A DNA stretch of 64,000 bases, taken from contig JAFRXI010000008.1 in assembly GCA_017437755.1 (NCBI GenBank), positions 99,913-163,912 on the forward strand, written 5' to 3'. Shown here in pieces: positions 18,758 to 49,239 of the stretch. Below the pieces are notes generated by a model. It saw nothing but the letters and a program-made list of their open reading frames with translations, had not been told where the DNA came from and searched no databases. Numbering within the stretch: the stretch's first letter is position 1; each line of letters starts with the position of its first letter. The translations under genes were made by a program, and so were the position numbers. This DNA is from Bacteroidales bacterium. Lineage in GTDB: Bacteria > Bacteroidota > Bacteroidia > Bacteroidales > UBA932.

Positions 18758-18762
18758 GGAAG

Positions 18763-18770: not shown

Positions 18771-18803
18771 CATAAATAATGGAATAAAGGATTTGTTCGT
18801 TTC

Positions 18804-18873
18804 AGAAACCGGTACAATAGTTGACCGTATGAAAACAGACCAGTTCTTTCCGCCTCAAAAAACACTATCTTTG
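18804..18873 (+). promoter_or_regulatory. Promoter of the acetylesterase gene with GntR-type half-sites
   Basis: TATCTTTG (18866-18873) is a TAnnTTTG -7 box. The octamer CAGACCAG (18836-18843) lies 30 bases upstream of it, as in the two other local promoters. An additional ACCGGT (18809-18814) lies further up. These match the ACC(A/G)GT motif seen next to the GntR gene, so the same regulator may act here. The binding is inference. Confidence 0.55.
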
Positions 18874-28878: not shown

Positions 28879-31800
28879 ATGAAGAGATTTATATTCATTG
28901 CCCTTTTGTTCGCCCAGGTGCTCGCATTCGCCCAGGGTACACGCAGTGTGAAAGGCACTGTAAAGGACTCCAACGGTGACCCTGTCATAGGGGCCGCCGT
29001 AATCCTGGAAGGCAGTCCTTCCACGGGAGCCGTCACGGACATGAACGGCAACTGGTCATTGAACTTTACCCCTGCCGGGAGCAGGCGGGCCCGCCTGATG
29101 GTAACCTGTCTGGGATATGCGGACCAAACCGTCGAAATCGGCAATCAGGCGGTTATCAGCATTGTTTTGGAAGAGGATTCTGAAGTCCTGGGAGACGCCG
29201 TGGTCGTGGGTTACGGCTCCATGCGTCGCTCGGACCTTACAGGTTCGGTGACGTCTGTGCGTATCGATGAGACGGAAGCAGGCCACAGTGCCAGCCTGAG
29301 TTCCCTGCTTCAGGGCAGGGCCGCCGGCGTACAGGTAACCAACAACAGCGCATCCCCTGATGCCGGCGTAACCATCCAGATCCGTGGTGCCAGTTCCTTC
29401 AACAGCGGCTCCGAGCCGTTGTATGTGGTGGACGGTATCATCATCAATGCCAACGGCGATTCCAACCTTGGAACCAAACTGGGCGACACCGACGGCGGTA
29501 CCAATGAAGCCACCAACGGCCTCATGGGTATCAACCCGATGGATATCGCATCGGTGGAAATCCTCAAGGATGCATCGGCTACTGCCATCTACGGCAGCCA
29601 GGGCGCCAACGGCGTCATTCTCATTACCACCAAGACGGCAAGCCGTGAAAAACCCACCGTTACCGCATCTTTCGGCCTGGATATCAATACGCCCTACAAG
29701 AAGCAGCCCATGCTGGACTTCTACGAATACGGCGAGTATTTGCGCGCCATAGTGGACAGCCCGCTGGTGGCACAGTACAACTCCGGCATGGTAAACACGG
29801 CCAAGAGCCGCCTGAACGCCATGCGCGGAGACTATTTCTGGAACCGTTACCAGCCCATCGACTGGCAGGACTACCTGATGCGTACTGCATGGAACCGTCG
29901 CTACTATGTTTCGGTGGCCGGTAAGCCAAAGAACAGCAACTACCTGTTCTCCGTGGGTTACAACAATACGCAGGGTATTATCAAGACCACCGGGTTCAAG
30001 AATCTCACGGTGCGTCTGAACATGGAACACAACCTGAACAAAAAGCTCCTCATAGGCATGCGCTCAGGTGTTTCCTACCTGTCCTCCCACCTCACGCAGG
30101 GTGCATCCATCGGTACGCTTACCGCCGCCACGTCACTCATGCGCAGTATGATTACCACGGCTCCGTTTGCCAAGATTCTGGAATATGACGATGAAGGAGA
30201 CGTGATTGATTGGGGCGACGATGAGAATCAGCAGTACGGCCCGAACCGCTGGATGGACGGATTCGTGAACAACAGGGTTGAATACCGTATCAATCCCAGC
30301 ATCTATGCCCAGTACAGGATTCTGCCCTGGCTCTCCTTCAGGACTACGCTGGGTGGTGACTACCGCGTAACGGAGCAGAGCCGTTTCAAGAGCCGCCTTC
30401 TGACGTCGGCCTCCACGGGCTCCACTGCTGCCGTGGGCCATACTGACCGTCTGGCATGGAACTGGGATAATATGCTGAACGTCTACAAACGTCTGAACAA
30501 GAAGCACTTGATTCAGGGAACCCTGGGTATGTCCATGTCCCGGAACCAGACCATTGTCCAGACCACGGAAGGCAAGAACATAGACCAGTGGAAAGCCAAG
30601 GAACTCTCGCTCAACTCTGCGGCCTATGCCTATTATACCTATACCGAGGCATCCTCATCGCTGATGTCCTTCTTCGCCCGTGCCATCTACAGCTACGCGG
30701 ACCGTTATGTGCTTACCACGACAATCCGCGCCGACGGTTCCAGCCGGTTCGCCGGAAAGAACAAGTGGGGATACTTCCCGTCTGCTGCCTTTGCCTGGCG
30801 TATCAACCAGGAACCGTGGTTCCGCGTTCCGGCCGTATCCATGGCAAAGCTCCGTCTGGGCTGGGGCCAGGTAGGTAATCAGAATATAGCGTCGTACGCT
30901 ACAATATATAATTACGGCACGAGTTACTATTCGGACCATGGCAACGACTCCCAGACCGTCCTTATCACCACAACAAGCAATCTGCCCAACCGTGACCTCA
31001 AGTGGGAAACGACTGAACAGACCAACGTGGGCTTGGATCTGGGACTGTTCCAGGGTCGCTTCACCCTAAGTGCCGATGCCTATTACAAGTTGACCAAGGA
31101 TCTGCTGCAAACCAAGAGACTGGCTCCTTCGGCCGGAATGGATAACCCTTGGGTGAATATGGGCTCCATTGAGAACAAGGGTCTGGAATTCACGCTGGAC
31201 GCCGTTCCCGTAAAGGTTGGCGACTTCGAGTGGAGTTTGGGAGGCAACATCTCCTTTAACCGCAACAAGATATTGTCCATCAACCCCGACGGCCTGGAGA
31301 ATGATTACATCTACCTGACCGCTGATCCGGCCAGCCAGCAGTACGTATCCCGCTTCCCTGGCGACCAGATAGGCTGGGGTAATGTCATGCGCACCTACCT
31401 GAACATCTTTGTGGAAGGTCAGCCAATGTCGCTGTTCTACGGTCTTCCGACCAACGGACTGGTTCAGGAAGGGGAGCAGGGATGTCCTTATTCCGCATCT
31501 GATTCCGGCTATCACGGCCCAGGCTCCATCAACTACATTGACGTTGACGGCGACGGCTACATAACTGACATGGACCGCACTGTCATCGGCGACCCGAATC
31601 CCAAATTTACCTATGGCTTCAATACCAGCCTGCGTTGGAAGAGCCTCACCCTTACTGCCAACTTCGTGGGCTGTTACGGCAACGACCTGTACAACGTGAA
31701 CAAGATGATGGACAGCAACACCTCATACGTGATGACCAACGTCACCAAGGATACGTTCTATAAGCAATGGACACCCGAAACGCCGGATAACTGGTATCCT

Positions 31801-32100
31801 ACCATCGGCGCCCTAAATGCTGACGACGTAAAGTGGGCAGTGGACCGCTATGTGGAAGACGGCTCCTACCTGCGCCTGTCCAACCTGTCCCTGTCCTGGG
31901 ATTTGCCCATCAAGAAGAAGGACTTCTTCATCAGGGGTGTAAACCTCACCGCCACCGGCGGCAATCTCTGGGTATGGACCAAGTATTCCAGCTGGGATCC
32001 CGACGTGAACAGCTATGGCGGTATCAAGCGTAAAGGAGCCGATATGGGTTCATACCCCGGTGCCCGCAGTTTCATGCTGGATGTTAAATTCACATTCTAA
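28879..32100 (+). CDS. SusC-type TonB-dependent glycan importer
   Basis: A 1073-residue outer membrane transporter. A signal peptide (about 1-20) precedes a carboxypeptidase-regulatory-like domain (about 22-100, VKGTVKDSNGDPVIGAAVIL), a TonB box (DAVVVGYG), a plug with IRGASSFNSGSEPLYVVDGI and VEILKDASATAIYGSQGANGVILI, and a large beta-barrel ending in Phe (LDVKFTF). Such proteins import oligosaccharides with energy from TonB and pair with a SusD lid. The SusD gene follows after 15 bases, so this copy is the functional pair partner. Confidence 0.95.
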   Translation: MKRFIFIALLFAQVLAFAQGTRSVKGTVKDSNGDPVIGAAVILEGSPSTGAVTDMNGNWSLNFTPAGSRRARLMVTCLGYADQTVEIGNQAVISIVLEEDSEVLGDAVVVGYGSMRRSDLTGSVTSVRIDETEAGHSASLSSLLQGRAAGVQVTNNSASPDAGVTIQIRGASSFNSGSEPLYVVDGIIINANGDSNLGTKLGDTDGGTNEATNGLMGINPMDIASVEILKDASATAIYGSQGANGVILITTKTASREKPTVTASFGLDINTPYKKQPMLDFYEYGEYLRAIVDSPLVAQYNSGMVNTAKSRLNAMRGDYFWNRYQPIDWQDYLMRTAWNRRYYVSVAGKPKNSNYLFSVGYNNTQGIIKTTGFKNLTVRLNMEHNLNKKLLIGMRSGVSYLSSHLTQGASIGTLTAATSLMRSMITTAPFAKILEYDDEGDVIDWGDDENQQYGPNRWMDGFVNNRVEYRINPSIYAQYRILPWLSFRTTLGGDYRVTEQSRFKSRLLTSASTGSTAAVGHTDRLAWNWDNMLNVYKRLNKKHLIQGTLGMSMSRNQTIVQTTEGKNIDQWKAKELSLNSAAYAYYTYTEASSSLMSFFARAIYSYADRYVLTTTIRADGSSRFAGKNKWGYFPSAAFAWRINQEPWFRVPAVSMAKLRLGWGQVGNQNIASYATIYNYGTSYYSDHGNDSQTVLITTTSNLPNRDLKWETTEQTNVGLDLGLFQGRFTLSADAYYKLTKDLLQTKRLAPSAGMDNPWVNMGSIENKGLEFTLDAVPVKVGDFEWSLGGNISFNRNKILSINPDGLENDYIYLTADPASQQYVSRFPGDQIGWGNVMRTYLNIFVEGQPMSLFYGLPTNGLVQEGEQGCPYSASDSGYHGPGSINYIDVDGDGYITDMDRTVIGDPNPKFTYGFNTSLRWKSLTLTANFVGCYGNDLYNVNKMMDSNTSYVMTNVTKDTFYKQWTPETPDNWYPTIGALNADDVKWAVDRYVEDGSYLRLSNLSLSWDLPIKKKDFFIRGVNLTATGGNLWVWTKYSSWDPDVNSYGGIKRKGADMGSYPGARSFMLDVKFTF

Positions 32101-32115
32101 GAGGAGGAGCGCATC

Positions 32116-33972
32116 ATGAAAAAGATATTTGCTATTATTTCAGTTTCCGTCCTGGCCTGTGGGTGTCACTTCCTGGACGAGAATATGAATACCCACTACT
32201 CCGGCGAAGATATCTTTGGTTCGGAGGCGGCGCTTGAGGCCTATGTGACCGGTTGTTACCAGGCCTATGCCACCAGCGGCTTCTACGGCGGCAATAACAA
32301 CGAATGGTTTTCTCCAGGAAGTACACTTACTCACTGGGGCCTTACGGGGAGCCAGCTCTCCGACGGACAGAAACGTTATATCAGCAGCCTGAATCTTACC
32401 CAATACAGCCGTCATCCCAACAACATCGACGTATTCAAGTTTAAGTATGCTGCCATCTACAAGTGCAACAAACTGATCGCCGAACTGCCGGCCAGCCCGG
32501 TGGACCAGAAGTACAAGAACGAGATCGAGGCCGAAGGCCGTTTCATCCGGGCGATGAACTATTTCGACATCGTCCGGCGATGGGGTAACGCGCCGCTGCA
32601 CCTGGATCCTCCCACCACCATCGGCGGTACCAGCCTGCCCCGGGAGAACTTCTGGGTCATCTACAAACAGATTCTGGAGGACCTTACCTATGCCGAAAAC
32701 AACGGCCGTGACTATGACAGGCAGCGTGGTATCGCCGGCCTGGGAAGCGGTCGAGTCTGCAAGAATGCCGCCACGGCGCAGAAAGCCCTGGTTTACCTGA
32801 CCATCGGCACGCTGCTGGCCCACGACGGTCCGAACGACAACTTCTGGGTTTGCTCCAACGATGAAGTCTACGCAGGTTTTGCTGAGGCCGGAATCACATC
32901 GGCCAAGGACGCCTTTGAGAAAGCACTCTCCTGCGCCAAGCAGGTGATGCCGGAAACCGCTCCTGATTCACCCTACAGGCTGGCTTCTACGTATGCCCAG
33001 CTCTTCCGGTGGACAGATCCCGAGGACTGGCAGTTGCGCGAACGAATCTTCGTAATCACTTCCACCAATGAAAACGGTTATTCCCAGCTTGCAACCTGGA
33101 GCCTTCCGAGCGCTTACAACAATACTACCTCCAATGTGAACAACAGTCGCATCCGTCCTTCCCGCTGGCTTTTCCAGAAATGGTGCGATGCGTACGGCGG
33201 TGAACGTGGATCCGGTACTACGGCCAACATCTACATCAAGTGTGGCGACCCGCGTATGGATGCTGCGCTCATCTATAACAACTTCATCGGTGCCAACGGG
33301 GCCACCAGGACCTGTTATCCCGCTTCAGACTGCATTACAGTTTACGACCGCACCAAGTCCATGCCGTACTTCAAGAAGTACTACGATCCTGCCTTTGACG
33401 GTTCGGTGGCAGGTTATGCAGACTTCTACGAGATGCGTCTGGGAGAAGTCTACCTCATCGCCGCAGAGGCGGCTGCCAACCTGTGCTCAACGCCAGGCGA
33501 CTCCTACGGGCAGGAAGCCATCGGTTATGTGAACATCCTTTTGGCACGCGCCCGTCACGCGGCCGACGGCACTCCCACGGTGGAACCCCAGGACTGGGAA
33601 GTAGCAGCTATTCCGGACAAGGATGCCCTCATCGAGAAAATATTCTGGGAGCGTGCCTTTGAAATGGTAGGCGAGCAGCACGACTGGTTCGACACCCACC
33701 GCATGGGAGCCACCTGGCTGGCCCGGTATGTGACCATCCCGGCAAACGCCTTCCTCGCCCTTCCGGAGCAGATTACCAAAAGTTCCAACGGAAACAACAG
33801 TTTCCGCAGCGGATATTATGGGGAACCCACTCACGGGGATGACAATATCTACCCGGTAGATCCCGCCGAGGTCCGCAAGGGCCTTATCTGCGCTTTCCCC
33901 AACGATGAGCTGGTTTACAATCCATCCCTCACGCTGGCCGACCAGAATCCTTCGGAAATTTTCTGGGAATAA
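32116..33972 (+). CDS. SusD/RagB-type glycan-binding lipoprotein
   Basis: A 618-residue lipoprotein (lipobox around LACGC, Cys 15 or 17). The N-terminal part reads SGEDIFGSEAALEAYVTGCYQAY, the usual start of mature SusD proteins. TPR-like helices follow with FIRAMNYFDIVRRWGNAPL, and near the C-terminus EKIFWERAFEMVGEQHDWFDTHR, both typical for RagB/SusD. It caps the SusC barrel and binds the incoming oligosaccharide at the cell surface. Length is somewhat above the usual 520-580. Confidence 0.94.
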   Translation: MKKIFAIISVSVLACGCHFLDENMNTHYSGEDIFGSEAALEAYVTGCYQAYATSGFYGGNNNEWFSPGSTLTHWGLTGSQLSDGQKRYISSLNLTQYSRHPNNIDVFKFKYAAIYKCNKLIAELPASPVDQKYKNEIEAEGRFIRAMNYFDIVRRWGNAPLHLDPPTTIGGTSLPRENFWVIYKQILEDLTYAENNGRDYDRQRGIAGLGSGRVCKNAATAQKALVYLTIGTLLAHDGPNDNFWVCSNDEVYAGFAEAGITSAKDAFEKALSCAKQVMPETAPDSPYRLASTYAQLFRWTDPEDWQLRERIFVITSTNENGYSQLATWSLPSAYNNTTSNVNNSRIRPSRWLFQKWCDAYGGERGSGTTANIYIKCGDPRMDAALIYNNFIGANGATRTCYPASDCITVYDRTKSMPYFKKYYDPAFDGSVAGYADFYEMRLGEVYLIAAEAAANLCSTPGDSYGQEAIGYVNILLARARHAADGTPTVEPQDWEVAAIPDKDALIEKIFWERAFEMVGEQHDWFDTHRMGATWLARYVTIPANAFLALPEQITKSSNGNNSFRSGYYGEPTHGDDNIYPVDPAEVRKGLICAFPNDELVYNPSLTLADQNPSEIFWE

Positions 33973-37020: not shown

Positions 37021-39087
37021 ATGCGAAGGACATGTTGCATGCTGGCTGTCTGCGCCCTGCTCCTTGCAGGGTGCAGGGAGGCTGGTTTCCAGGTGTCCGA
37101 TACGCCGGATCTGGAGGTGAAAGCGTTCAATTCAGCCAGCATTACACTCGACGACAAGGGCGGCGTGGAGGTGATGGGTACCTATGAATACGGCACCGGC
37201 GGTGTCAGCTTCAAGGGTCACTGGGATCTCACCGGCTACAACCGCCTGCGTTTCACTGTGGCTAATCTGGATTCGCTGGAGCATCTGATACTGGTGGTTT
37301 CTGTCTGCAATGCGGAGCAGGAGAAGATTCCCTGGAGGGGAACGCCTTATGCAGGCGAAGCCAACCGCCGCTTCCACGTGAAGCCGCTTGAGAAGGTTAC
37401 GCTTACCTGGTGGTTCCCCGGGCCCGTTGCCCATCCGGAGATTGACCGGCAGTTCACCACTATGCAGAGCACCCCCTATTCAGCCGGTGACTTTACTTAC
37501 AACGTAGACTGGTCCGACGTATCCGAAATCCGTTTTAACCAGCGCTGGAACAAGCTGGGCATGCGGTATTGCATCTCGGACGTGGAACTGTTGGAGGGGC
37601 CCCGCAGGAAGGGCCCCGATTATCTGGCTTACGGCGAGGATGAGTTCTTCCCCTTCATCGACAGATACGGGCAGTTCAAGCACAAGGACTGGCCCGGGAA
37701 GATTCATTCTGATAAGGAACTCGCCGCCGCCCGTGAGGCGGAGGAAGCTGACATTGCAGCACATCCCGCTCCGGCGGACTGGGACGAGTACGGCGGCTGG
37801 GCCGCCGGCCCCCAACTCGAGGCCACCGGCCGTTTCCGTACGGAGAAGATTGATGGAAAATGGTGGCTGGTGGATCCGAAAGGGCACCTGTTCTGGAGCC
37901 ACGGCGTGCTGCGCATCTCGCCCGGCAATGCCGTGACGCCGCTCAGCGCTCCAGGTCTGGCGGACCGCCGCAAGTGGTTTGAAGAACTTCCGGAAAAGGA
38001 CGACCCGGAGTACGGGAAGTTCTACACCACCTTCGACCCGCTCCTTGGTAGCTACTATGCTGCCCGAGGCATCGACGACCACTATGACTTCAGTTCAGCC
38101 AACTGCTATCGCAAATACGGTCCTGACTATATGGCCGTTTACAACGACCTGTGCCACCGCCGGCTGCGCAGCTGGTGCATGAACACCATGGCCAACGCCA
38201 CGGAACCGTCCATGACCGCCCTTCACCGCACACCCTGGTGCGACCGCATCGAGATTGTCTCCACGCCGATGTCTGAGAACGCAAAAATCCTCTGGTGGAA
38301 ACTGCCGGACCCGTTTGACCCCTCCTTCAAAGAGGAGATAGACCGTCAGCTGACCGCCCGGGCGGAGGAACTCTCCGACCCCTGGTGCATCGGCCTGTTC
38401 GTGGATAACGAGCATGCCTGGGGTGATGCCACGCACGTGACGGAGTGTGCGCTTGACGCACCGGACGGTGCTGCCGTGAAAAAGGCTCTCCGTGTATGGC
38501 TGAGAGCACGTTACGGAAAGGATGTGCCGTTCGCGGCGATGACCATTGAGGACAAGGAAGCTTTCAACGACGTGGTGATTGATAAGTACTACAGCACGAT
38601 ACGTGAGGAATTCAACCGGCTTGCTCCGGGCTTGCTGTATCTGGGCTGCCGCTTCGGGGGGCATCCGGGCAATCCCCGCGTGATTGAGATCGGAGCACGG
38701 TACTGCGACCTTCTCAGCTACAACATCTACAAGTACAACCTGGATTGCTTCAAACTTCCGGAAGGGATAGACAAGCCAGTGCTGATCGGCGAGTTCCATT
38801 TTGGGTCTACCGACCGCGGCCCGTTCCATCCCAGCCAGGTCTGGACGGAGAACCAGGAAGACAGGGGAGTCTGCTACAAGGACTACGTCCGTTCGGCCCT
38901 GGAGCATCCCAACTTCGTGGGGACGCACTGGCACCAGTTCGGCGACCAGGCAACCACCGGACGTTTCGACGGCGAAGATTTCCAGGTGGGCTTCACCGAT
39001 GTCTGCGATACGCCTTACAAGGAGACAGTGGAGGCAGCCCGCGAGATAGGAAGCCGGATGTATCAGCTTCGATGGGATGCAAGATGA
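37021..39087 (+). CDS. GH50/agarase-like clan GH-A hydrolase, lipoprotein
   Basis: A 688-residue lipoprotein (LAGC, Cys 18). Residues about 25-195 form a beta-sandwich like a carbohydrate-binding module. The (beta/alpha)8 part starts with GKWWLVDPKGHLFWSHGV (about 279-296). Probable acid/base is Glu 464 in LFVDNEHAW and nucleophile Glu 591 in LIGEFHFGSTDRG. This last motif is like that of GH50 beta-agarases, so a GH50 or related agarase-like family is the best guess; the substrate need not be agarose. Its stop overlaps the start of the radical activase (ATGA), linking it to the glycyl radical module. Confidence 0.7.
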   Translation: MRRTCCMLAVCALLLAGCREAGFQVSDTPDLEVKAFNSASITLDDKGGVEVMGTYEYGTGGVSFKGHWDLTGYNRLRFTVANLDSLEHLILVVSVCNAEQEKIPWRGTPYAGEANRRFHVKPLEKVTLTWWFPGPVAHPEIDRQFTTMQSTPYSAGDFTYNVDWSDVSEIRFNQRWNKLGMRYCISDVELLEGPRRKGPDYLAYGEDEFFPFIDRYGQFKHKDWPGKIHSDKELAAAREAEEADIAAHPAPADWDEYGGWAAGPQLEATGRFRTEKIDGKWWLVDPKGHLFWSHGVLRISPGNAVTPLSAPGLADRRKWFEELPEKDDPEYGKFYTTFDPLLGSYYAARGIDDHYDFSSANCYRKYGPDYMAVYNDLCHRRLRSWCMNTMANATEPSMTALHRTPWCDRIEIVSTPMSENAKILWWKLPDPFDPSFKEEIDRQLTARAEELSDPWCIGLFVDNEHAWGDATHVTECALDAPDGAAVKKALRVWLRARYGKDVPFAAMTIEDKEAFNDVVIDKYYSTIREEFNRLAPGLLYLGCRFGGHPGNPRVIEIGARYCDLLSYNIYKYNLDCFKLPEGIDKPVLIGEFHFGSTDRGPFHPSQVWTENQEDRGVCYKDYVRSALEHPNFVGTHWHQFGDQATTGRFDGEDFQVGFTDVCDTPYKETVEAAREIGSRMYQLRWDAR

Positions 39088-39836
39088 CGGACGGGATTGT
39101 ATTCAGTATCGAGGAGTTCGCCATCAATGACGGCCCTGGCATCCGCACAACGGTTTTCCTGAAGGGATGTCCGCTGCGCTGCGCCTGGTGTCACAATCCG
39201 GAAGGGTGGAGCCCTCTGCCGGAGAAGATGGTGAAAAGGGGCAGGGAAGAAACCTGCGGCTATCGGATCTCTTCAGGGGAACTGGCGGAGAGGCTGGGCC
39301 GGGACAGGGACCTGTTCCGTGACAGCGGGGGAGGCGTCACTTTCACTGGCGGGGAACCGCTGATGCAGAGCCCTTTCCTTTGCGAAGTGATGGATGGCCT
39401 GAAGGATATGCACAAGGCTGTGGAAACCAGTGGATATGCTCGGGAAGATGCCTTCCGCAGCGTTATGGAGAGGGCCGACAGCCTGCTCTTTGATATCAAA
39501 CTGGTGGATTCCGCGCTGCACAGGAAGTATACTGGTGCTGGTAATGAGCTCATCCTCAGAAACCTGAAGACGCTCATCGCTTCCGGAAAACCCTTTGTGG
39601 CAAGGATTCCCCTGATTCCCGGCGTGAATGACACGCGGGAGAATATGGAAGCCACGGCATCCCTCCTCCAGGGCGCCGTCGGTCTACAAAGGGTGGAACT
39701 GCTACGTTACAACCGGGTAGCGGGTGCCAAATACCCGATGGTGGGCCTTTCCTACCGGCCACCTTTCGACGAAGAAAAAGAACCGGCCGTTTACGATGCT
39801 TTCACCGGCCTGGGTATGAAATTATTGGTTTTGTAA
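39084..39836 (+). CDS. Glycyl radical enzyme activase (PflA-like radical SAM protein)
   Basis: A 250-residue radical SAM protein that installs the glycyl radical on its partner using S-adenosylmethionine. The cluster motif is C29-X3-C33-X2-C36 (GCPLRCAWCHNPEG), followed by the family blocks GGGVTFTGGEPLMQ and LLFDIKLVD and the HRKYTG stretch. The ferredoxin-like insert with extra four-cysteine clusters common in activases of dehydratase-type enzymes is missing, so it has the minimal PflA layout. The start at 39084 overlaps the stop of the GH50-like gene; the partner enzyme starts one base after its own stop. Confidence 0.92.
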   Translation: MTDGIVFSIEEFAINDGPGIRTTVFLKGCPLRCAWCHNPEGWSPLPEKMVKRGREETCGYRISSGELAERLGRDRDLFRDSGGGVTFTGGEPLMQSPFLCEVMDGLKDMHKAVETSGYAREDAFRSVMERADSLLFDIKLVDSALHRKYTGAGNELILRNLKTLIASGKPFVARIPLIPGVNDTRENMEATASLLQGAVGLQRVELLRYNRVAGAKYPMVGLSYRPPFDEEKEPAVYDAFTGLGMKLLVL

Positions 39837-39837
39837 A

Positions 39838-41907
39838 ATGAACAAGAGAATAGAGACTTTACGGGCATTCATCCGAAGCGGTAAGCACTTCGCTTTCCGG
39901 CATGCTCCCGAAGATTATGGTCTGGACCGTTTGGCCCATCGTTTTGCCGATATCGCCTTGCCTCCAGTGCAGCGCAGTTCACGTATGCTGCGTGCCCTTC
40001 TGAATGCGGAAAAGCCCGTTATCCTGGAAGGGGAGAAGATAGTTGGTACCCGCACTATCAGCCGCATCCCCTCCATTTTTACGGAAGCGGAGTGGGCGGA
40101 GATCCGGAAAACACATACCCTGCACGAGCGTGGTACCGTTTCAAATATATCCCCAGATTATGAAGGTATCCTTCGAGACGGTTTGGGAGGACGGAAATCG
40201 CAGGTCCTTGAAAGGGCCAAGGATCCTACCCTGACTGAGGAACAGCGACTGTTCCTCTCTGCTGCTGTCGAGAGCATAGAGGCTGTACAGGATTTTATCC
40301 AAAAGTACCGCGTTTGTGCACGCAGCGCCGGTTTGGAGGACATAGCCAGCATACTCGACAACATTCATTCTGTGGGGGCGACTACCCTCCGGGAGGCTCT
40401 CCAGCTGCTTAGAATGGTTCATTTCGCCCTTTGGGAGAGCGACTGTTACCACAACACCCTGGGTCGGTTCGACCAATATATCTATCCTTATTATCGTGCC
40501 GACAAAGCCGCCGGACGCATTACCGACCAGGAAGCCTTCGACCTCATCGAGGAGTTCTTCCTGACTTGTAACAAGGACAGTGACCTTTACGTGGGGATGC
40601 AGCAGGGAGACAATGGCCAGAGCATCGTTCTGGGAGGCCGCAACCAAAAGGGCGAGTACCTTTTCAACGAGGTGTCCAGGATGTGCCTCAAGGCCAGCTA
40701 CGAACTCAATCTGATCGATCCCAAAATCAATCTTCGCTGCGATGCCGATACGCCCCTGGATGTGTTTATCCAGGGTGCCCATCTCACCAAACGTGGCTTG
40801 GGCTTTCCGCAGTACGACAACGACGACGTGGTAATTCCCGGCCTGGAAAAACTGGGGTACAGCCCCGAAGACGCCCGGAATTATGTGGTGGCGGCCTGCT
40901 GGGAGTTCATCATCCCCAAGAACGGGATGGAGATTGTTAACATCGACGCCCTGTCCTTTGCGGGGGTGGTGAGTGACGCACTGGAACACTTGGAAGAATA
41001 CGCCAGTTATGAGGCTTTCTACGCCTATGTGGACAACTGCATCAAGGCCGAGTGCGAGCGCATAACACAGGCGCACAATAACCTTTATATCGTTCCGGCT
41101 CCCTTCATGTCCATGTTGATGGGCGGCACCATAGAAAAGGCCCGGGATATTTCACTGGGCGGCAATTCCAACAATTACGGCGTTCACGGCACGGGCCTTT
41201 CCACGGCTGCCGATTCCCTGGCGGTGATCAAGAAGTACTACTTTGAGGAAAAAACCCTATCTTTGGAAGAACTGATGGATGCTCTCCACCATAACTTCAA
41301 AGGCCATGAGGCCCTTCAGGAGCACCTGCGGAACGACGCTCCCAAGATGGGCCTGGACCTGGAAGAACCGGATTCCATCGGCTCAGCGCTCCTCAAATCC
41401 TTCGCCGAAGGGCTAAGGGGGAAACGGAATGAACGTGGCGGCATATGGCGCGCCGGTACGGGCACGGCCATGTACTATATTTTCCATGCCAAGGACCTTC
41501 CGGCAACACCGGACGGCCGATATGCCGGCGAGGTGATACCAGCCAACTTCACGCCCAGCATGTTCTTGAGACAGAAGGGCCCCGTGTCGGTGATGCGCTC
41601 TTTCTCCAAACAGAAACTGGAAGATGCAATCAACGGCGGTCCTCTCACCATAGAACTGGACGAGAGTATCTTCCGCAACGATGAAAGCGTGGAGAAACTG
41701 GCCATGCTCATCCGTTCCTACATCCGTATGGGCGGGCACCAGTTGCAGTTGAACACACTGAACCGTGAGACCCTCCTGGATGCCAAGAAACATCCTGAAC
41801 AGCATCGCGACCTGATTGTGCGCGTATGGGGCTGGAGCGGATATTTCGTGGAACTTGACGAGTGCTATCAGGATCATATTATCGAACGGATCAAATACAA
41901 GATATGA
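39838..41907 (+). CDS. Glycyl radical enzyme, eliminase-like, unknown substrate
   Basis: A 689-residue member of the pyruvate formate-lyase-like family. The active site loop reads VAACWEFIIP with the thiyl Cys 354 and Glu 356. This C-x-E pattern is found in eliminases (glycerol dehydratase, choline lyase, the anhydrohexitol-phosphate enzymes), whereas pyruvate formate-lyase has two adjacent cysteines. The glycyl loop near the C-terminus is VRVWGWSGYFVEL with the radical Gly 665. It is about 100 residues shorter than most family members. It is coupled to its activase (1 base) and to a sugar porter (ATGA overlap), inside a glycan locus. A role on a sugar or anhydrosugar derived from the glycan is inference. 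Confidence 0.9.
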   Translation: MNKRIETLRAFIRSGKHFAFRHAPEDYGLDRLAHRFADIALPPVQRSSRMLRALLNAEKPVILEGEKIVGTRTISRIPSIFTEAEWAEIRKTHTLHERGTVSNISPDYEGILRDGLGGRKSQVLERAKDPTLTEEQRLFLSAAVESIEAVQDFIQKYRVCARSAGLEDIASILDNIHSVGATTLREALQLLRMVHFALWESDCYHNTLGRFDQYIYPYYRADKAAGRITDQEAFDLIEEFFLTCNKDSDLYVGMQQGDNGQSIVLGGRNQKGEYLFNEVSRMCLKASYELNLIDPKINLRCDADTPLDVFIQGAHLTKRGLGFPQYDNDDVVIPGLEKLGYSPEDARNYVVAACWEFIIPKNGMEIVNIDALSFAGVVSDALEHLEEYASYEAFYAYVDNCIKAECERITQAHNNLYIVPAPFMSMLMGGTIEKARDISLGGNSNNYGVHGTGLSTAADSLAVIKKYYFEEKTLSLEELMDALHHNFKGHEALQEHLRNDAPKMGLDLEEPDSIGSALLKSFAEGLRGKRNERGGIWRAGTGTAMYYIFHAKDLPATPDGRYAGEVIPANFTPSMFLRQKGPVSVMRSFSKQKLEDAINGGPLTIELDESIFRNDESVEKLAMLIRSYIRMGGHQLQLNTLNRETLLDAKKHPEQHRDLIVRVWGWSGYFVELDECYQDHIIERIKYKI

Positions 41908-43226
41908 AAAACGGATTGAAGGCTTTTATGTTCTGGGTGGCCTTTGTGGCTTCCCTGGGCGGACTGCTTTTCGGCTTTGACACTGCGGTCATTTCCGGTG
42001 CTGAGAAGCAGATTCAGGCAGTTTACGGCCTGTCGGACTTTTCCCATGGCTTCACCATGGCCACGGCCCTGATAGGCACCATCATCGGCGCCCTGTTCTG
42101 TGGCAAGCCCGCGGAACGGTACGGACGCAAGAAGTCCCTGATAGTGATAGGCATCCTGTACCTGGTTTCCGCAGTGTTCAGCGGAGCGATCGTGAACTGG
42201 TACAGTTTCATGTTCTTCCGCTTCCTGGGTGGCCTTGCCGTGGGAGCGTCTTCCGTGGTGGGACCGATGTTCATCGCGGAGATTTCCCCGGCGGCATGGA
42301 GGGGCCGTTTCGTTTGCTTCTTCCAGTTCAACATTGTACTGGGTATTGTCCTGGCCTATTTTTCAAATTACTGGATTGCCGGCGTGCCCAACGACTGGCA
42401 GTGGATGATCATGGCTGAGTCCATCCCGGCATTGCTTTTCAGCGTGCTGATGTTCACCATGCCGGAGAGTCCCCGCTGGCTGGTAAAGCAGGGGAGGGAG
42501 GCCGATGCCGTGGCAGTCTTCGAGAAGACCGGTGAAAAGGATGTTCCCGCCGAACTCGAGGCCATCCGCCAGTCCCTGGCCGATGCTTCCCGCAAGGGCG
42601 GAAAACTCTTCCAGAAGAAGTACTGGAAGCCCATCCTCATCGCATTCCTCATTGCCACCATCAATCAGCTCAGCGGCATAAACGCCATCCTGTACTACGC
42701 CCCCCGTCTTCTGGAGATGTCCGGCGTATTCCGCGAGGGAGCCATGCTGCAGAGCATAATAATCGGCCTGACAAACCTCACTTTCTCCATGCTGGGCATG
42801 ATCCTCATCGACAAGGTCGGGCGAAAGACGCTGATAGGCATAGGTGCCATAGGCATGGTGATATGCCAGGCGATGGTGGCCCGCGGCTTTGCCCTGGAGG
42901 CCTTCCACGGCTACTACATGCTCATCTTCCTGGTGGGCTACGTAGCTTTCTTCGCCCTTTCGCTGGGAGCCACCATCTGGGTGGTCATCGCTGAGGTCTT
43001 CCCGAACGATGTCCGCGCCGGCGGGCAGGTGTTCGGCAGCATGACGCACTGGGTGTGGAGCGCCCTCCTCACCTGGTTCTTCCCGCTGTTCCTCTCAATT
43101 GGCGGGCAGTACATCTTTACCTTCTTCTCCGTCATCGCCGCCCTTGCGCTGCTCTTTGCATGGTGGATGCCGGAGACAAAGGGAAAATCTTTGGAACAAA
43201 TTCAGAAAGAACTAGTTAAAGAATAA
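41904..43226 (+). CDS. MFS sugar porter (XylE/GalP type)
   Basis: A 440-residue inner membrane transporter with 12 predicted membrane segments. Sugar porter signatures are present: GFDTAVISGAE near the start, the loop ERYGRKKSL, RFLGGLAVGASS, PESPRWLVKQGR, INQLSGINAILYYAP and the final PETKGKSLEQIQ. It should import a monosaccharide or small sugar with protons. Its ATG overlaps the stop of the glycyl radical enzyme, so the transported sugar may feed that enzyme. The start at 41904 is fixed by the first membrane segment. Confidence 0.92.
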   Translation: MKNGLKAFMFWVAFVASLGGLLFGFDTAVISGAEKQIQAVYGLSDFSHGFTMATALIGTIIGALFCGKPAERYGRKKSLIVIGILYLVSAVFSGAIVNWYSFMFFRFLGGLAVGASSVVGPMFIAEISPAAWRGRFVCFFQFNIVLGIVLAYFSNYWIAGVPNDWQWMIMAESIPALLFSVLMFTMPESPRWLVKQGREADAVAVFEKTGEKDVPAELEAIRQSLADASRKGGKLFQKKYWKPILIAFLIATINQLSGINAILYYAPRLLEMSGVFREGAMLQSIIIGLTNLTFSMLGMILIDKVGRKTLIGIGAIGMVICQAMVARGFALEAFHGYYMLIFLVGYVAFFALSLGATIWVVIAEVFPNDVRAGGQVFGSMTHWVWSALLTWFFPLFLSIGGQYIFTFFSVIAALALLFAWWMPETKGKSLEQIQKELVKE

Positions 43227-43230
43227 AGCC

Positions 43231-44685
43231 ATGAAGAGAATCCTTCTGGCCGCCATGGCCGCCCTTTTAGTAGTCTCCGCTGCGGGACAGGAACTGAAGA
43301 AATCCGTCACCTGGGATAAGATCCGCCATCATCCGGCGCCGCTCAAGGTAATCGGCGAACTGGAGACCGTTCCGTCCAGCCTGGACCGTCCGTCCCTCTG
43401 GAGCGTGGGCTGTGAAACAATGGACCGCGACTATGCCTACTTCGACAAATTCTCCAAGTATATGCCCGAAACGGGCGTGGGTTATGCCCGCCTGCAGAGC
43501 GGTTGGGCCAAGTGCGAGCCCAAGAAGAAGGGGAAGTACGACTTTGCCTGGCTGGACGCCCATGTGGACGGCCTCATTGGATTGGGAATTCACCCCTGGC
43601 TTTGCCTGTGCTATGGCAACCCTCTTTACACCGATGGCGGCAAGGACCTGAACGCCCGTCTGTTCGGCGACGGTCCCGTGATGGATGGCTGGCTTAAGTA
43701 TGTCAAACAGGTTGTCAAACGCTACAAGGGCAAAGTGACGATGTACGAGGTGTGGAACGAGCCGGACGGTGCCCGTGATGCCAACGGCAAGTGGGCTCCC
43801 GCTGCCAACTGGGCCGAGTATGCCCTCCTGTTCGCCCGTACGGCCAAGGCAATCAGGGAAGAGGATCCGGAGGCCAAGATTGCGGCTTTCGGCGCCTTCT
43901 CCATCCGCACCGATTATTTCAAAAGCGGGATGCAGCGCATCGCCGAACTGGGCGCCGCAGAGGATGTGGACTATGTGACCTACCACGCCTACTGGCCTCA
44001 GCCCGAGCGGATTATCCCGCTCATCAAGCAGCTGAAAGAGGATATCCGGGCCGTGAATCCCAAGACCATCCTGCTGCAAGGCGAAAGCGGCTGCCCGTCC
44101 CGCTTGGACTACGGCCACGCCATGTGCTTCCGTGAGTGGACTGAGTACAGCCAGGTCAAATGGGACCTGCGCCACTGCCTGGTCAATTTCTCGATGGGGA
44201 TTCCTTCTTCCATCTTCACCTTTGCAGACCTGCACTACAAGGATTACATGATCCAGTCCTTTGGCCTTATGTGCACCAACCTCGTGAGCGTGCCGCAGTA
44301 TAAGCGTCCGAAATTCTATGGCGTCCAGCACCTGACCAGCGTCATTACTGCCGACTGCAAGGCCTCCGACGATTACCGGATTACCGGTGCCAGCGTCACC
44401 GACGACATCATGCTGCTTGGCGTGCGGAAAGAGGGGAAGCCGGTGGGATTCCTCCTGTGGCTCTCCGGTGAGGAACCCACCAGCAGCCTGGACCGCAAAC
44501 TGGTTGATTTCACCGTGAGCGGACCGCTCCTCAGCGACCCCGTGTATGTGGATATGGTAACGGGTTATGTGCACGAGATGAAGGATCTGGAGAAACGCTT
44601 TGACAACACCACGCGTTTTACCGCCTTCCCCATCTGGGATGCTCCGATTTTCGTTTGTGAAAGAAGCACAGTGAGTTTAAAATAG
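43231..44685 (+). CDS. GH39-like clan GH-A glycosidase, secreted
   Basis: A 484-residue protein with a signal peptide (cleavage near residue 19). The (beta/alpha)8 barrel has an acid/base motif YEVWNEPDGA (Glu 177) and a likely nucleophile Glu 285 in LLQGESGCPS. A short beta domain follows from about residue 385. The W-N-E-P pattern and size fit families such as GH39 (beta-xylosidase and relatives), but clan GH-A families look alike by eye. It follows the sugar porter by four bases. The substrate is not known. Confidence 0.7.
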   Translation: MKRILLAAMAALLVVSAAGQELKKSVTWDKIRHHPAPLKVIGELETVPSSLDRPSLWSVGCETMDRDYAYFDKFSKYMPETGVGYARLQSGWAKCEPKKKGKYDFAWLDAHVDGLIGLGIHPWLCLCYGNPLYTDGGKDLNARLFGDGPVMDGWLKYVKQVVKRYKGKVTMYEVWNEPDGARDANGKWAPAANWAEYALLFARTAKAIREEDPEAKIAAFGAFSIRTDYFKSGMQRIAELGAAEDVDYVTYHAYWPQPERIIPLIKQLKEDIRAVNPKTILLQGESGCPSRLDYGHAMCFREWTEYSQVKWDLRHCLVNFSMGIPSSIFTFADLHYKDYMIQSFGLMCTNLVSVPQYKRPKFYGVQHLTSVITADCKASDDYRITGASVTDDIMLLGVRKEGKPVGFLLWLSGEEPTSSLDRKLVDFTVSGPLLSDPVYVDMVTGYVHEMKDLEKRFDNTTRFTAFPIWDAPIFVCERSTVSLK

Positions 44686-44695
44686 CGTTCAAGAT

Positions 44696-47404
44696 ATGCT
44701 TACAGCCATCCTTGTCGCCGGCCTCCTGCAGGCACTGCCCGGAATGTTCCCGTATGTCCCCACGCACAATGCGCCGGAGAATATCACCAACGTATCTACC
44801 TGGCCTTCATGGGAGAAAGATATGGCTGGAGATGAGGGCTTCATCCAGTCCTCTGGTGACCATTTTGTGGACGGGACCGGTTCACAGCGCCGTTTTCTTG
44901 GAACCAACATCTGTTTTACGGGATGTTTCCCTTCGCATGAGGACGCCGACAAGGTGGCGGCTGAACTCTCGCGCTACGGCATCAATCTGGTGCGGCTCCA
45001 CTATGTCCATCACAGGCCTCCCCAGGGAAAAGCCTACCCCAAACCGAACTCTGTATTGGAACCGGTGCAGTTGGAACGCTTCGATTATCTTTTCGCCAAA
45101 CTCAAGGAGCGGGGCATCTACATTTATTTCCAGTTGAACATTTCCCGAAAGTTCGGGGAGGAGAACGGCATTGTCAATGCCAAGCAACTGCCATATTTCT
45201 ATCATGGCATCGATAATATCGACGAGCGGTTCATCTACCTCCAGAAGAATTACATCAGTGAGATTCTTTCCCATGTGAACCCGTATACCGGCCTTGCATA
45301 TAAAGATGAACCGGCAATCGGGATGCTGGAGCCCGCCAACGAGAACACCATAACTTATGCGTGGTTTACGCCCCGTTACAGGTTCCCGAATCTGATCGAG
45401 CCCTATATGTCTGAGTTTAAGGCCACATGGAATGCCTGGCTGAAGTACATGTACGACAGTACCGAGGATCTCAAGGAATCCTGGATGTCGGGATTCGAAG
45501 GGGATGGTAGCGAATTCTTCCAGGACGGAGTTCTCACGGAAAACTACGATAAAACCAATTGGGTGCTGCAGCTGGACGGAAAGGCCGAGGGAACCATGAC
45601 CCTGGAGCCGGCTGCGGCGAAGGATAAACTTAAGGGAACGCACTTCATGCGTGTCAAGGTGGACAAGCGCGGCGCTACGCCCAATATGCCCCAATTCTGC
45701 AAAGGGCCGATAGCCGTAAAGAGCATGGCTCCCTACACATTGAAGATAAAGATGCGCTCCGACAGAAACATCCAGGTGGATATGCGCCTGAGCCAGGCGC
45801 ATGCTCCCTGGAGGGTGGCCGGCCTTACTGTTACGGGTATTCAGCTCACAAGGAAATGGCAGGAATTCACCTTCCCGTTTGTGGCGAACATGGACGATGA
45901 CGGCGTCCGTCTGGTTGTCTGCGGTTTTGAACCCGGCACTTATGAATTCGCCGACCTGTCCCTCACCTCGGGGGCTTCGGTGGACTGGCCCAAAGACTGG
46001 AATCTGGATGAGGGGAACATCCCCATACCAACCCGGGAGGAATGGTCCATGCCGCCGCAACGGGCCGTGGATTTTACGGCTTTCCTCAGTCACTTGGAGG
46101 ATGTATACTTTGGCCAGATGTATGCCCACGTCAAGGTGCATGCGAAAGCCAGGCAGCCCGTGACGGGCACCCAGATTCTCTGGGGCTTCTCCCAGCCGCA
46201 TTCCCGCACCGACTACGTGGACATTCACAGCTATTATAACCATCCAATTTTCCCCAACACATTGAAGGACTACAACAACTGGAGCATGGGCTCCGGTTCG
46301 CTGGTAAATGAAATGGGGAAGAACAATGATAACAAACTCTCTGCCGTGGCGCGTGCACGCATCCTGGGACGCCCGCTTACCATAAGTGAATACGATCATC
46401 CAAACCTGAGCTATTGGGCCGCTGAAGGCAATGTGATGGGGGCGGCAGTGGGAGCCTTCCAGAACTGGTCTGGCATCATTCAGTTCGCCTGGAGCCATTC
46501 CGACAATTTCTTCCGTGATGTGATGGATATACGTTTCGACATGTGCAGTGCGCCTCAGAAACTGGCGCACCTGCCTGCATGTTACGCGATGTTCGTGCGC
46601 GGAGATGTCCGGACAGGTCCGGCCGATACCGTGGTGGCCCGCCTTGCCCGCATCGAGGACGATATCAAGACGGTGGCTATCACCCAGGGCCCTTCCGCCC
46701 ATAACCGCGCCGCGTCGCCCGGCCTGATGGAGACGCTTCCGGTGATGCTCCGGTCCGGTACCGTGATAACGGAGAATACGGGGCAGTTCCCGCTGGAAGG
46801 CCGCACCGTCATCACCAGCGAAGAAGAGGTCCCGCAGTACCTTAAAGATGCCTACGAAGCCAGGGAAATGACAACATCCACCGGTGAAATCACCTGGAAC
46901 TGGAAGGAAAAGGGCGCCGGGTTCTTTAAAGTGGACACAGACTATACCAAGGCCTTTACCGGTTTTGTCCGCGGCCGCAGTTTTGACTTTAAGGGGATCA
47001 GGCTTACTCCCGGCGAAACTGAGAAGGACTGGCTTACTCTCACCCTTACCTGCAAGGTGCCCGGCAAGGCGCAGCCGGACGGAAGACTGTCCAAGGGCAG
47101 CTGGCTGCTGGCAGTAACCGGCCAGTGCCGCAACACCGATGAAGTGATTGTGACGCTGGCGCAGGGAAAACGCATCTCCGCCTGCGAGGCCGACGGCGGC
47201 AAGGTGGGTGTTGCACCCATCCTGTGCGAGGGCGTTCCTGCTCAGTTGCGCCTCAAAGGCCTTGCCGGCCACGTGCAGTTCTTCGCCCTGGATGTGGACG
47301 GATTCCGCAAAGCCATGATTCCCGTCACGGCCGACGGCGGAGACGCCCTGCTCCAGACGGGACCGGATTATCAGACTTTCTGGTATGAAATCGTAGTAAA
47401 ATGA
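44696..47404 (+). CDS. Large GH5-like hydrolase with carbohydrate-binding insert
   Basis: A 902-residue protein with a short signal peptide. The first half of a clan GH-A barrel (about 60-265) carries RRFLGTNICFTG, the NLVRLHYVHH strand and the acid/base motif LEPANEN (Glu 216). Residues about 270-430 look like a CBM4/9-type beta-sandwich (WVLQLDGKAEGTM to YEFADLSLTSG) inserted into the barrel. The barrel then resumes (IHSYYNHP) with nucleophile Glu 565 in LTISEYDHPN. The C-terminal 250 residues are beta-rich. The specificity is unknown. An insert at this place is unusual and worth modelling. Confidence 0.68.
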   Translation: MLTAILVAGLLQALPGMFPYVPTHNAPENITNVSTWPSWEKDMAGDEGFIQSSGDHFVDGTGSQRRFLGTNICFTGCFPSHEDADKVAAELSRYGINLVRLHYVHHRPPQGKAYPKPNSVLEPVQLERFDYLFAKLKERGIYIYFQLNISRKFGEENGIVNAKQLPYFYHGIDNIDERFIYLQKNYISEILSHVNPYTGLAYKDEPAIGMLEPANENTITYAWFTPRYRFPNLIEPYMSEFKATWNAWLKYMYDSTEDLKESWMSGFEGDGSEFFQDGVLTENYDKTNWVLQLDGKAEGTMTLEPAAAKDKLKGTHFMRVKVDKRGATPNMPQFCKGPIAVKSMAPYTLKIKMRSDRNIQVDMRLSQAHAPWRVAGLTVTGIQLTRKWQEFTFPFVANMDDDGVRLVVCGFEPGTYEFADLSLTSGASVDWPKDWNLDEGNIPIPTREEWSMPPQRAVDFTAFLSHLEDVYFGQMYAHVKVHAKARQPVTGTQILWGFSQPHSRTDYVDIHSYYNHPIFPNTLKDYNNWSMGSGSLVNEMGKNNDNKLSAVARARILGRPLTISEYDHPNLSYWAAEGNVMGAAVGAFQNWSGIIQFAWSHSDNFFRDVMDIRFDMCSAPQKLAHLPACYAMFVRGDVRTGPADTVVARLARIEDDIKTVAITQGPSAHNRAASPGLMETLPVMLRSGTVITENTGQFPLEGRTVITSEEEVPQYLKDAYEAREMTTSTGEITWNWKEKGAGFFKVDTDYTKAFTGFVRGRSFDFKGIRLTPGETEKDWLTLTLTCKVPGKAQPDGRLSKGSWLLAVTGQCRNTDEVIVTLAQGKRISACEADGGKVGVAPILCEGVPAQLRLKGLAGHVQFFALDVDGFRKAMIPVTADGGDALLQTGPDYQTFWYEIVVK

Positions 47405-49239
47405 GAAAAATCGTCGTACTGTGCACTTTTGTCGTGCTGCTTGCCTCCTGCGGGAACGGCAAGGAGGACGCCGGGAGTCTGGTTCAGCGGAACTTCATGT
47501 TATCCCAGGATCCGTACAGCATGACGTACCTTGGGATGGGATCGGCTATTCCCATGGATATTCCTTGGAAGGCTGGAGATAAGTTGCTTGCTGTTTCCGG
47601 CATCAAAAGTGCCACGGAGGTCACAGTTTCCGGAGGCCATGCGGCGGCCCGGGTGGACGTATCGGCCAACAGTATTTCTTTCGTTCGCGGAAAAGCATCC
47701 TTCTCGGGCGGTGTCGTCGTTGTTAATCCGGCCTACGACGGATCGGCGTCCGATGCCGCCCTTGCCGTAGGTCGGGGGAAGCCGGATGGCGGTTCAGTCC
47801 TGCTGAACCCCATAGGAGCCGTGCTCCGCTTCTCGGTGGGCAATCAGTCCATCAGCAAAGTCTCCTTCTTCATCGGTGACGCGGTATTCCCCGGTAAAAT
47901 CACCCTGGACCCGGCCCGCCAGAACATTGATATTACGTCCCGGAAACAGTCGGCAACGGTCCCGATTAGCCGGACAGGGGAATTCTTTATTCCAGTGATT
48001 CCGGGCTTTACGGCCGTGAATCTTACATTGGAATTGAGGGACGCCTCCGGTACCGTACTGGGCACAAAAAGCGGCATCGTAGAATGGGAATGCAATGTGG
48101 GCTCCATGCTCAACCTTGGGGACGTGGAAACCTGTGAGCTGGGAACGTCGGACATTCCGCTCCCGGAACCGGGTGTTCCACAGGCCGAGGGGGCTCTCCT
48201 GGCCGTGGAAGGAATGGGCGTGGGTATGAACCTGACCGGTCTGGAACATTGCTGGGAAAGCCTCATGAACAAACCCCAACGGGACAATCCCGCCTATTAT
48301 GAGCAGGCTGGCGGTTATGGCCTTATCACGGCAAAGACCATGCAGACCATTGCCGATGCCGGCTACAAATGTGTCCGCGTCCCCGTCACCTGGCATCTGC
48401 ATATGGACAGCATCACCGGAACAATCGATAAAGTGTGGCTGGACAGGGTAGAGGAAGTGGTGGACCTGGCCATCGACGCAGGTCTCTACGTCATTATCAA
48501 CGTGCACCACGATGCCGGCACCATCCTTGGGGTCTGGTGCATCTCCGATATGGAACATTACGAGACCACAAGCGCCGGATTGGTGAATATCTGGACGCAG
48601 ATTGCCAATCGTTTCAAGAATCACGATTACAAGCTCCTGTTTGAAGGATATAACGAGATGCTGGACGGGGACAATACCTGGACTTATCCTAAAAAGCAGT
48701 CCTCAATGGATGTCTGTAATCAGCTCGGCCAGGACTTTGTGAATGCGGTGCGCCGAACAGGCGGGAAAAACTCTACCCGCAACCTCATCGTAAGTACCTA
48801 TGCCACTACGGCCACCACGCGTGCGGTTGAGGCATTCCGTATGCCCAAGGATGTTGTGGCGGGCCATATTTTCGTACAGGTCCATTCATATGTCCCCAGT
48901 GAGTTCACCTCGCAGGTGGCTACTGGCCGCAATAATCTTGTGGAGGGCGACTTGGCTGCAATGGAAGGGGTATTCGAGCCCCTGGACCGGGTGCTCCTGT
49001 CCAAAGGTTATCCCGTGGTCCTGGGTGAATTCGGCGCCTATCCCCGTGAAGGCCGCAGTGAAGACGACCGTGCCACCCACGCCGGCTACATGACCAAACT
49101 GTGCCTTCAGCACAAAGTGGTCCCCATCATCTGGTACAACCCCCTGAACAACGCCCAGCGTTCGGAGGGCGTCTGGAAATACCCGAACATCAGGGATGCC
49201 ATGATTGACGCGTATAACGATTATCTCTCCGGAAAATGA
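47401..49239 (+). CDS. GH5 endoglucanase-type lipoprotein with fimbrillin-like N-terminus (copy 2)
   Basis: A 612-residue lipoprotein (LASC, Cys 17). The N-terminal beta-rich part (about 30-250) has PWKAGDKLLAV and FFIPVIPGFTAVNLTLEL, like the other fimbrillin-GH5 proteins but shorter. The GH5 domain (about 268-610) shows RVPVTWHLHMD, NVHHDAG, acid/base Glu 419 in FEGYNEM, VQVHSYVP and nucleophile Glu 543 in VLGEFGA. It probably cuts the same type of backbone as its neighbours with different preference. It overlaps both flanking genes by four bases. Confidence 0.85.
   Translation: MRKIVVLCTFVVLLASCGNGKEDAGSLVQRNFMLSQDPYSMTYLGMGSAIPMDIPWKAGDKLLAVSGIKSATEVTVSGGHAAARVDVSANSISFVRGKASFSGGVVVVNPAYDGSASDAALAVGRGKPDGGSVLLNPIGAVLRFSVGNQSISKVSFFIGDAVFPGKITLDPARQNIDITSRKQSATVPISRTGEFFIPVIPGFTAVNLTLELRDASGTVLGTKSGIVEWECNVGSMLNLGDVETCELGTSDIPLPEPGVPQAEGALLAVEGMGVGMNLTGLEHCWESLMNKPQRDNPAYYEQAGGYGLITAKTMQTIADAGYKCVRVPVTWHLHMDSITGTIDKVWLDRVEEVVDLAIDAGLYVIINVHHDAGTILGVWCISDMEHYETTSAGLVNIWTQIANRFKNHDYKLLFEGYNEMLDGDNTWTYPKKQSSMDVCNQLGQDFVNAVRRTGGKNSTRNLIVSTYATTATTRAVEAFRMPKDVVAGHIFVQVHSYVPSEFTSQVATGRNNLVEGDLAAMEGVFEPLDRVLLSKGYPVVLGEFGAYPREGRSEDDRATHAGYMTKLCLQHKVVPIIWYNPLNNAQRSEGVWKYPNIRDAMIDAYNDYLSGK

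Follow-up and report, generated by a model that had tools for sequence, protein, structure and literature searches.

What does a glycyl radical enzyme (GRE) do inside an operon for glycan breakdown? This question is raised by the window examined here, that is, a whole stretch of 64,000 nt from a Bacteroidales bacterium (UBA932; contig JAFRXI010000008.1), whose own coordinates are used below. On its forward strand, genes for an activase, a GRE of 689 residues and a XylE-like sugar porter occupy positions 39084-43226, behind a gene for a glycosidase resembling glycoside hydrolase (GH) family 50 in a SusC/SusD operon. The preliminary description of this DNA had these four genes joined by ATGA overlaps or a one-base gap, and the reading frames confirm it: the end of the GH50-like gene (37021-39087) and the start of the activase gene share an ATGA at 39084, a single base separates the activase stop (39836) from the GRE start codon (ATG at 39838), and a second ATGA at 41904 joins the end of the GRE gene (41907) to the start of the porter gene, whose stop lies at 43226. 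According to the part of PMC11574389 available to us, many abundant gut GREs are without known function. We propose, with a probability of roughly 0.6, that the present GRE is an eliminase in a movable catabolic unit, composed of activase, GRE and importer, that serves an imported monosaccharide.

Subfamily membership of the enzyme

The protein belongs to the GRE superfamily: both PF02901 and the C-terminal PF01228 score over their cut-offs, Gly665 lies in an RVxG motif, and Cys354 is present. Relatives were collected by a scan with two peptide patterns, each species being represented by one genome; it yielded 241 stretches, 184 of them encoding relatives, and the best 80 were kept. These 80 loci are distributed over Bacteroidota, Verrucomicrobiota, Bacillota and Spirochaetota, phylum groups being taken from the record titles; one locus (L076, Bacterium 1XD21-13) was grouped with Bacillota. 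For three loci (L075, L094 and L097), the gene caller chose frames on the opposite strand and gave no GRE frame. These three were excluded from the counts of neighbours (77 loci) and included in the counts of motifs and of activase and porter homologues (80 loci).

All 80 relatives carry both AACWE in the cysteine loop and RVWGWSGYF in the glycyl radical loop, and neither AACWE nor RVWGW occurs in any of the 39 other rows compared, 35 of which are usable GREs. Glu356 stands two residues after Cys354 in every relative, an arrangement typical of GRE eliminases, and both residues are likewise invariant in the 80 rows of a conservation table (the window, L004, L005 and 77 loci), a set that overlaps with the 80 relatives and is not identical to them. 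When this table was compared with 16 outgroup rows, Trp355 was found to replace the Val or Ile of most of them, and Trp664 and Trp666 stand at positions where most have Ala/Ser and Tyr, respectively. Polar or aromatic residues occupy many of the invariant positions, as would befit a sugar substrate without proving one. The loop formed by Y204-H205-N206 seems to lack one residue in comparison with its relatives, and its alignment is therefore unsure.

Phylogenetic analysis was based on 54 rows, namely 19 of the 40 prepared family rows (six duplicates were dropped) and 35 other GREs; four partial or non-GRE rows were removed from the tree, yet counted among the 39 other rows of the motif comparison. 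The 19 subfamily rows form one clade with a support of 100/100 and a stem of 1.81 changes per column, apart from PflB, HypD, PflD and YbiW. Many of the 35 other GREs lack the N-terminus, their source loci being short, and their long branches drew a warning from the program; the deeper forks, including the sister GREs of the clade, are partly unresolved. A search with a 36-row alignment also separated the subfamily: no member scored below 1120 bits and no other GRE above 362. All NCBIfam GRE models that matched the protein stayed under their cut-offs, the best being TIGR01774 (PFL2/glycerol dehydratase; 314 vs 678 bits). The protein also lies outside HypD by both model (NF043068, 265 bits vs a cut-off of 1100) and clade, and outside YbiW/PflD by clade. 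None of the equivalog models of CutC, HPAD, IAD and HpsG/HpfG exceeded 237 bits, their cut-offs being 1000-1150. The tree contains no named rows for these enzymes, among them the decarboxylases, or for glycerol dehydratase, and the subfamily is set apart from them by model scores only. Judged by these comparisons, the GRE is of a known enzyme kind and represents a new subfamily, outside the characterised ones tested, which agrees with the preliminary description as far as tree and models reach. Among the matches listed for open full-text papers, we found no description of this subfamily, or of any GRE linked with arabinofuranosidases or with a mutarotase cassette.

The same 36-row search, part of which scored no more than two candidates per genome, detected the subfamily in 2 of 393 genomes sampled from the order and in 6 of 101 from the genus; it is therefore rare. 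Its carriers include gut and rumen bacteria. In one relative (L061 3352-5292, Parabacteroides sp. BH.2_3), the GRE match contains one stop, reflecting either decay or an assembly error.

The conserved unit and its neighbours

An activase homologue is present in 79 of the 80 loci (L066 is the exception) and lies within 300 bp of the GRE gene in 71 of them. The distance is 1.2-1.4 kb in seven Bacteroidota loci, six of which have a GntR-type regulator gene on the opposite strand between the two genes, and 4.1 kb in L079. Of the 32 Bacteroidota activase-GRE pairs called adjacent, 21 share a 4-base overlap. The activase of the window has its Cx3Cx2C motif at 39168-39191 and lacks a ferredoxin-like insert. 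Cysteine counts indicate that 36 of 39 activases from Bacteroidota and all 5 from Verrucomicrobiota likewise lack the insert and that 25 of 28 from Bacillota/Spirochaetota have it. Such insert-free and insert-bearing activases beside the same kind of GRE (L023-L102) offer a natural comparison for the role of the extra clusters.

Porter homologues were detected in 47 of the 80 loci, in 46 of them within 1.5 kb of the GRE gene, with 41 of 43 Bacteroidota, 6 of 6 Verrucomicrobiota and 0 of 31 Bacillota/Spirochaetota loci represented; the two Bacteroidota loci without a porter (L057 and L059) are on contigs that end at the GRE gene or within 40 bases of it. The window's own porter scores over the curated cut-off of the sugar porter family TIGR00879. 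Further neighbours were grouped by BLAST linkage, each cluster being named after one to three scanned representatives. Within six genes of the GRE gene, the 28 Bacillota/Spirochaetota loci with a called GRE contain genes for the ATPase (13 loci), permease (11) and binding protein (7) of ATP-binding cassette (ABC) systems and for a LacI regulator (10). In many Bacillota loci, ABC sugar-importer genes take the place of a porter of the major facilitator superfamily (MFS), and we read the ABC genes of L076 as probable ribose-type importers from the domains of their representatives.

The conserved unit is therefore activase-GRE(-porter). Domains, motifs and the SusC/SusD pair bear out the earlier view of a glycan operon in which a Cys-x-Glu GRE is linked with an activase and a sugar porter, and the counts above answer the concern that the gene set might be absent from all related loci. 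That view had also included the GH50-like gene in a set of four. This part did not hold, since the GH50-like cluster occurs within three genes of the GRE gene in only 3 of 77 loci, all of them closest relatives, and the four-gene set was rejected as a conserved unit.

Other sugar genes recur nearby. Within six genes of the GRE gene, an aldose epimerase gene occurs in 14 of the 43 Bacteroidota loci, in 4 of the 6 from Verrucomicrobiota and in 1 of the other 28; it lies directly upstream of the activase gene in L052, L056, L058, L063, L065 and L069. Genes of GH51-like enzymes (14 of 43 Bacteroidota loci) and of GH127 (11 of 43) are recurrent as well, each occurring in 3 of 28 Bacillota/Spirochaetota loci, and GH106 and GH43 genes also recur. 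In Bacteroides fragilis Q1F2, Bacteroides sp. STD2_73 and Parabacteroides chinchillae, whose loci were chosen after their neighbours had been seen, GH127 lies within 10 kb of the GRE gene, with 0.02-0.03 expected. In addition, genes for a sugar kinase (FGGY or PfkB) and a class II aldolase are near the GRE gene in L076, L078, L087 and L090 (on the opposite strand in L087 and L090), the aldolases of the last three having been assigned by their cluster with that of L076. Counts of loci overstate the independent evidence, because related bacteria partly co-inherit their neighbours.

Proposed function and its rivals

The Cys-x-Glu motif points to an eliminase, and MFS or ABC import, together with a mutarotase and arabinofuranosidases, suggests that the substrate or a close precursor of it is a free aldose. 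We infer that the GRE acts on the free sugar, by eliminase chemistry and in the following order. The sugar would be released by the glycosidases of the operon and imported unphosphorylated by the porter, or by the ABC importer in many Bacillota, and the mutarotase would supply the right anomer. The activase would install a radical on Gly665, from which it would be transferred to Cys354; this cysteine would abstract hydrogen from a hydroxyl-bearing carbon, Glu356 would aid proton removal, and the neighbouring C-O bond would break. In species with an adjoining kinase and class II aldolase, the resulting deoxy-carbonyl product would then be phosphorylated and split by the aldolase. As to the identity of the sugar, our guess is a pentose or deoxyhexose of the plant wall, with L-arabinose itself as a tentative choice. 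A more specific version, in which a free cyclic aldose, for instance L-arabinose, undergoes dehydration by the GRE through Cys354 to a deoxy-sugar lactone or a deoxy-ulose, seems doubtful to us. If true, it would mean an oxygen-sensitive entry of sugars that bypasses aldose isomerase, before phosphorylation, over four phyla of anaerobes. More generally, if the substrate is a free sugar, polysaccharide breakdown by fibre-degrading anaerobes would gain a radical branch. Given the sharp motifs, the adjacent activase and, in Bacteroidota and Verrucomicrobiota, the monosaccharide porter, candidate substrates are few and mostly purchasable.

Several observations weigh against this proposal. In the alignment, PflD, YbiW and glycerol dehydratase have a His at the position of N103, and PflD has an Asp at that of N368; both are active-site residues of these enzymes, and the chemistry may therefore differ from that of known dehydratases. 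Kinase and aldolase genes are near few GRE genes, and none was seen among the window genes scanned. The glycosidase families vary by clade (GH50, GH51, GH127, GH106), so that no single sugar unites the loci, and the scanned neighbours are not sugar genes in the Bacillota loci L091, L098 and L100; the same holds for some of those in Bacteroidota L047 (BatD) and in L099. Moreover, among 18 GRE-bearing genomes, several of them incomplete, 6 have L-arabinose isomerase (PF02610) over its cut-off and 12 do not. In the genus sample, only 36 of 101 genomes score over this cut-off, including 2 of the 6 that bear the GRE (G479 and G495), so that a missing isomerase in GRE-bearing genomes is meaningless. 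The idea that the GRE replaces L-arabinose isomerase was rejected, the presence of PF02610 showing no association.

Two other explanations are sugar-related. A diol dehydratase could end an isomerase-kinase-aldolase route, in which a small aldehyde is reduced to a 1,2-diol that the GRE dehydrates. The kinase and aldolase genes of the four loci named above fit this route, as do a FucI-like isomerase near the GRE in L076 and L078, aldo-keto reductases in L074 and L090, and B12-independent glycerol dehydratase as the best solved match (257 bits). We regard it as unlikely, because its enzymes did not turn up next to the GRE in most Bacteroidota loci, which have an importer joined to it instead, and because the His of glycerol dehydratase is replaced by N103. 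Unlikely, too, is an anhydrosugar lyase of the YbiW/PflD type, which would form a 1-deoxyketose by opening a 1,5-anhydrohexitol, free or phosphorylated. The superfamily is the same, PflD (231 bits) and YbiW (202 bits) are among the nearer solved relatives, and the accessible part of PMC12441222 describes their substrates as sugar-derived polyols. Against this stand an identity of only 27-28% over aligned residues, a separate clade, and different residues around the cysteine and glycine loops. Furthermore, the importers are MFS or ABC systems, and no gene of the phosphotransferase system (PTS) was noticed among the scanned neighbours, where no dedicated PTS search was made; anhydrosugars lack a free anomeric centre, which leaves the recurrent aldose 1-epimerase without an evident role. 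The importers and the epimerase thus weaken the earlier suggestion of an anhydrosugar as substrate, for which the preliminary description had pointed to 1,5-anhydrohexitol phosphates as substrates of YbiW and PflD, a statement that the same part of PMC12441222 supports.

The substrate could instead be a non-sugar component of the plant wall that accompanies the glycan, such as an amino acid, an aglycone or a methyl ether. GREs are diverse, and HypD acts on hydroxyproline (PMC11574389). The adjoining importer, however, is a sugar porter over the subfamily cut-off, an aldose epimerase recurs, and neither tree nor model makes this GRE a HypD. GH127 and GH51 enzymes could free arabinose from hydroxyproline-rich proteins, which counts for a non-sugar substrate; on balance we consider it improbable. 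A pyruvate or 2-ketobutyrate formate-lyase for general fermentation would share the Pfam families of the GRE and is very improbable. A single Cys followed by x-Glu (Ala-Cys-Trp-Glu) stands where PflB has a Cys-Cys pair, identity to E. coli PflB is 23%, and TIGR01255 reaches 74 bits vs a cut-off of 994. The tree, which was checked for clustering with true pyruvate formate-lyases, places the GRE on a different branch, and tree, motif and model score together led us to reject this assignment.

The surrounding operon and known systems

The features of the locus are listed in Table 1. A SusC/SusD pair, the SusC-like member being a TonB-dependent receptor, followed by glycosidase genes makes it a polysaccharide utilization locus, and the operon runs to 62324, closing with a beta-helix protein after the GH31 glycosidase. 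The GH50 assignment of the gene upstream of the activase appears sound from its homology to solved GH50 enzymes; neither Pfam nor NCBIfam gave a match for it at E 0.001. For the GH3 enzyme, the best NCBIfam match is an alpha-L-arabinopyranosidase model, at 513 bits under a cut-off of 1300. The glycosidases of the operon do not allow the target glycan to be named. Upstream of the SusC/SusD pair lie genes for a GH5 enzyme (21420-23471), a SASA-type esterase (18896-20332) and, on the opposite strand, a GH3 enzyme (16493-18865), which are possibly part of the same system.

Table 1. Features of the locus, in window coordinates
Feature	Coordinates	Strand	Evidence
SusC-like and SusD-like pair, operon head	28879..33972	+	PF00593, PF07715, PF07980
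GH50 beta-agarase-like glycosidase	37021..39087	+	best solved relatives GH50 beta-agarases, 4bq2 277 bits
Radical SAM (S-adenosylmethionine) GRE-activating enzyme, 250 residues	39084..39836	+	PF04055; TIGR02494 229 bits vs cut-off 174
GRE, uncharacterised subfamily, 689 residues	39838..41907	+	PF02901 305 bits, PF01228 80 bits; own clade
Cysteine loop A-A-C-W-E (Cys354, Trp355, Glu356)	40891..40905	+	in 80/80 relatives
Glycyl radical loop R-V-W-G-W-S-G-Y-F (Gly665)	41821..41847	+	in 80/80 relatives
MFS sugar porter, 440 residues	41904..43226	+	PF00083; TIGR00879 330 bits vs cut-off 238; XylE 261 bits
GH39/beta-xylosidase-like glycosidase	43231..44685	+	PF01229 32.9 bits, 6yyh 28.9 bits; both weak
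Large protein, weak likeness to GH5 mannanases	44696..47404	+	3pz9 36 bits; no Pfam match at E 0.001
Two tandem GH5 proteins	47401..51128	+	PF00150
GH3 and GH2 glycosidases	51125..55644	+	Pfam domain scan
GH31-like glycosidase	55641..57305	+	PF01055 77.8 bits
Aldose 1-epimerase	57302..58288	+	PF01263 279 bits; cluster C3, shared with epimerases beside relatives' GREs
GH31 glycosidase	58315..60642	+	PF01055 82 bits, PF17137

Other GREs were also encountered. The genome of the window encodes a second one (L153 6130-9325; G000:C47) of 764 residues with GCTE and RVAGFSAVF motifs, which is overlapped by a ferredoxin-type activase gene; a gene for a NanE-like epimerase lies close by. This second GRE groups with one from a Persicobacter plasmid that lies beside malectin-domain and GH20 genes, and is perhaps another sugar-linked GRE. 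The genome of locus L102 (G067, Lachnospiraceae bacterium RGIG5494, 3.6 Mb) gave 28 glycyl radical domain matches, some of them gene pieces or short frames; seven other genomes searched alongside gave 2-8 each. On a plasmid of Hymenobacter, an aerobic genus, a gene of the pyruvate formate-lyase family (L139 4671-7129) is annotated as two adjacent coding sequences.

Among known systems, B12-independent glycerol dehydratase (1r8w/1r9d), the best sequence match in the PDB, shares the fold family, the Cys-x-Glu loop and the C-terminal glycine loop with the GRE, but it is 98 residues longer, has GCVE instead of AACWE, and retains His at the N103 position. HypD is also an eliminase that occurs in Bacteroidota with an adjoining activase, and differs in its separate clade. 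PflB shares the PF02901/PF01228 superfamily only, given its Cys-Cys pair, other branch and low identity. The nearest solved relative of the porter is XylE, a D-xylose:H+ symporter, whose equivalog model reaches 342 bits vs a cut-off of 608. PflD and YbiW of E. coli resemble the GRE as sugar-catabolic enzymes with an adjoining activase and Cys-x-Glu, but with 765 and 810 residues they are 76 and 121 residues longer. The gene for PflD adjoins PTS genes and is near that for FsaB, and YbiW is near FsaA, whereas the present subfamily is accompanied by MFS or ABC importers and an aldose epimerase. According to the accessible part of PMC12441222, PflD and YbiW cleave 1,5-anhydroglucitol-6-phosphate and 1,5-anhydromannitol-6-phosphate, and the product of the GRE in this route is 1-deoxyfructose-6-phosphate. 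The loci with kinase and aldolase genes resemble the E. coli anhydrohexitol route in layout, but with another importer and, in our view, a free sugar.

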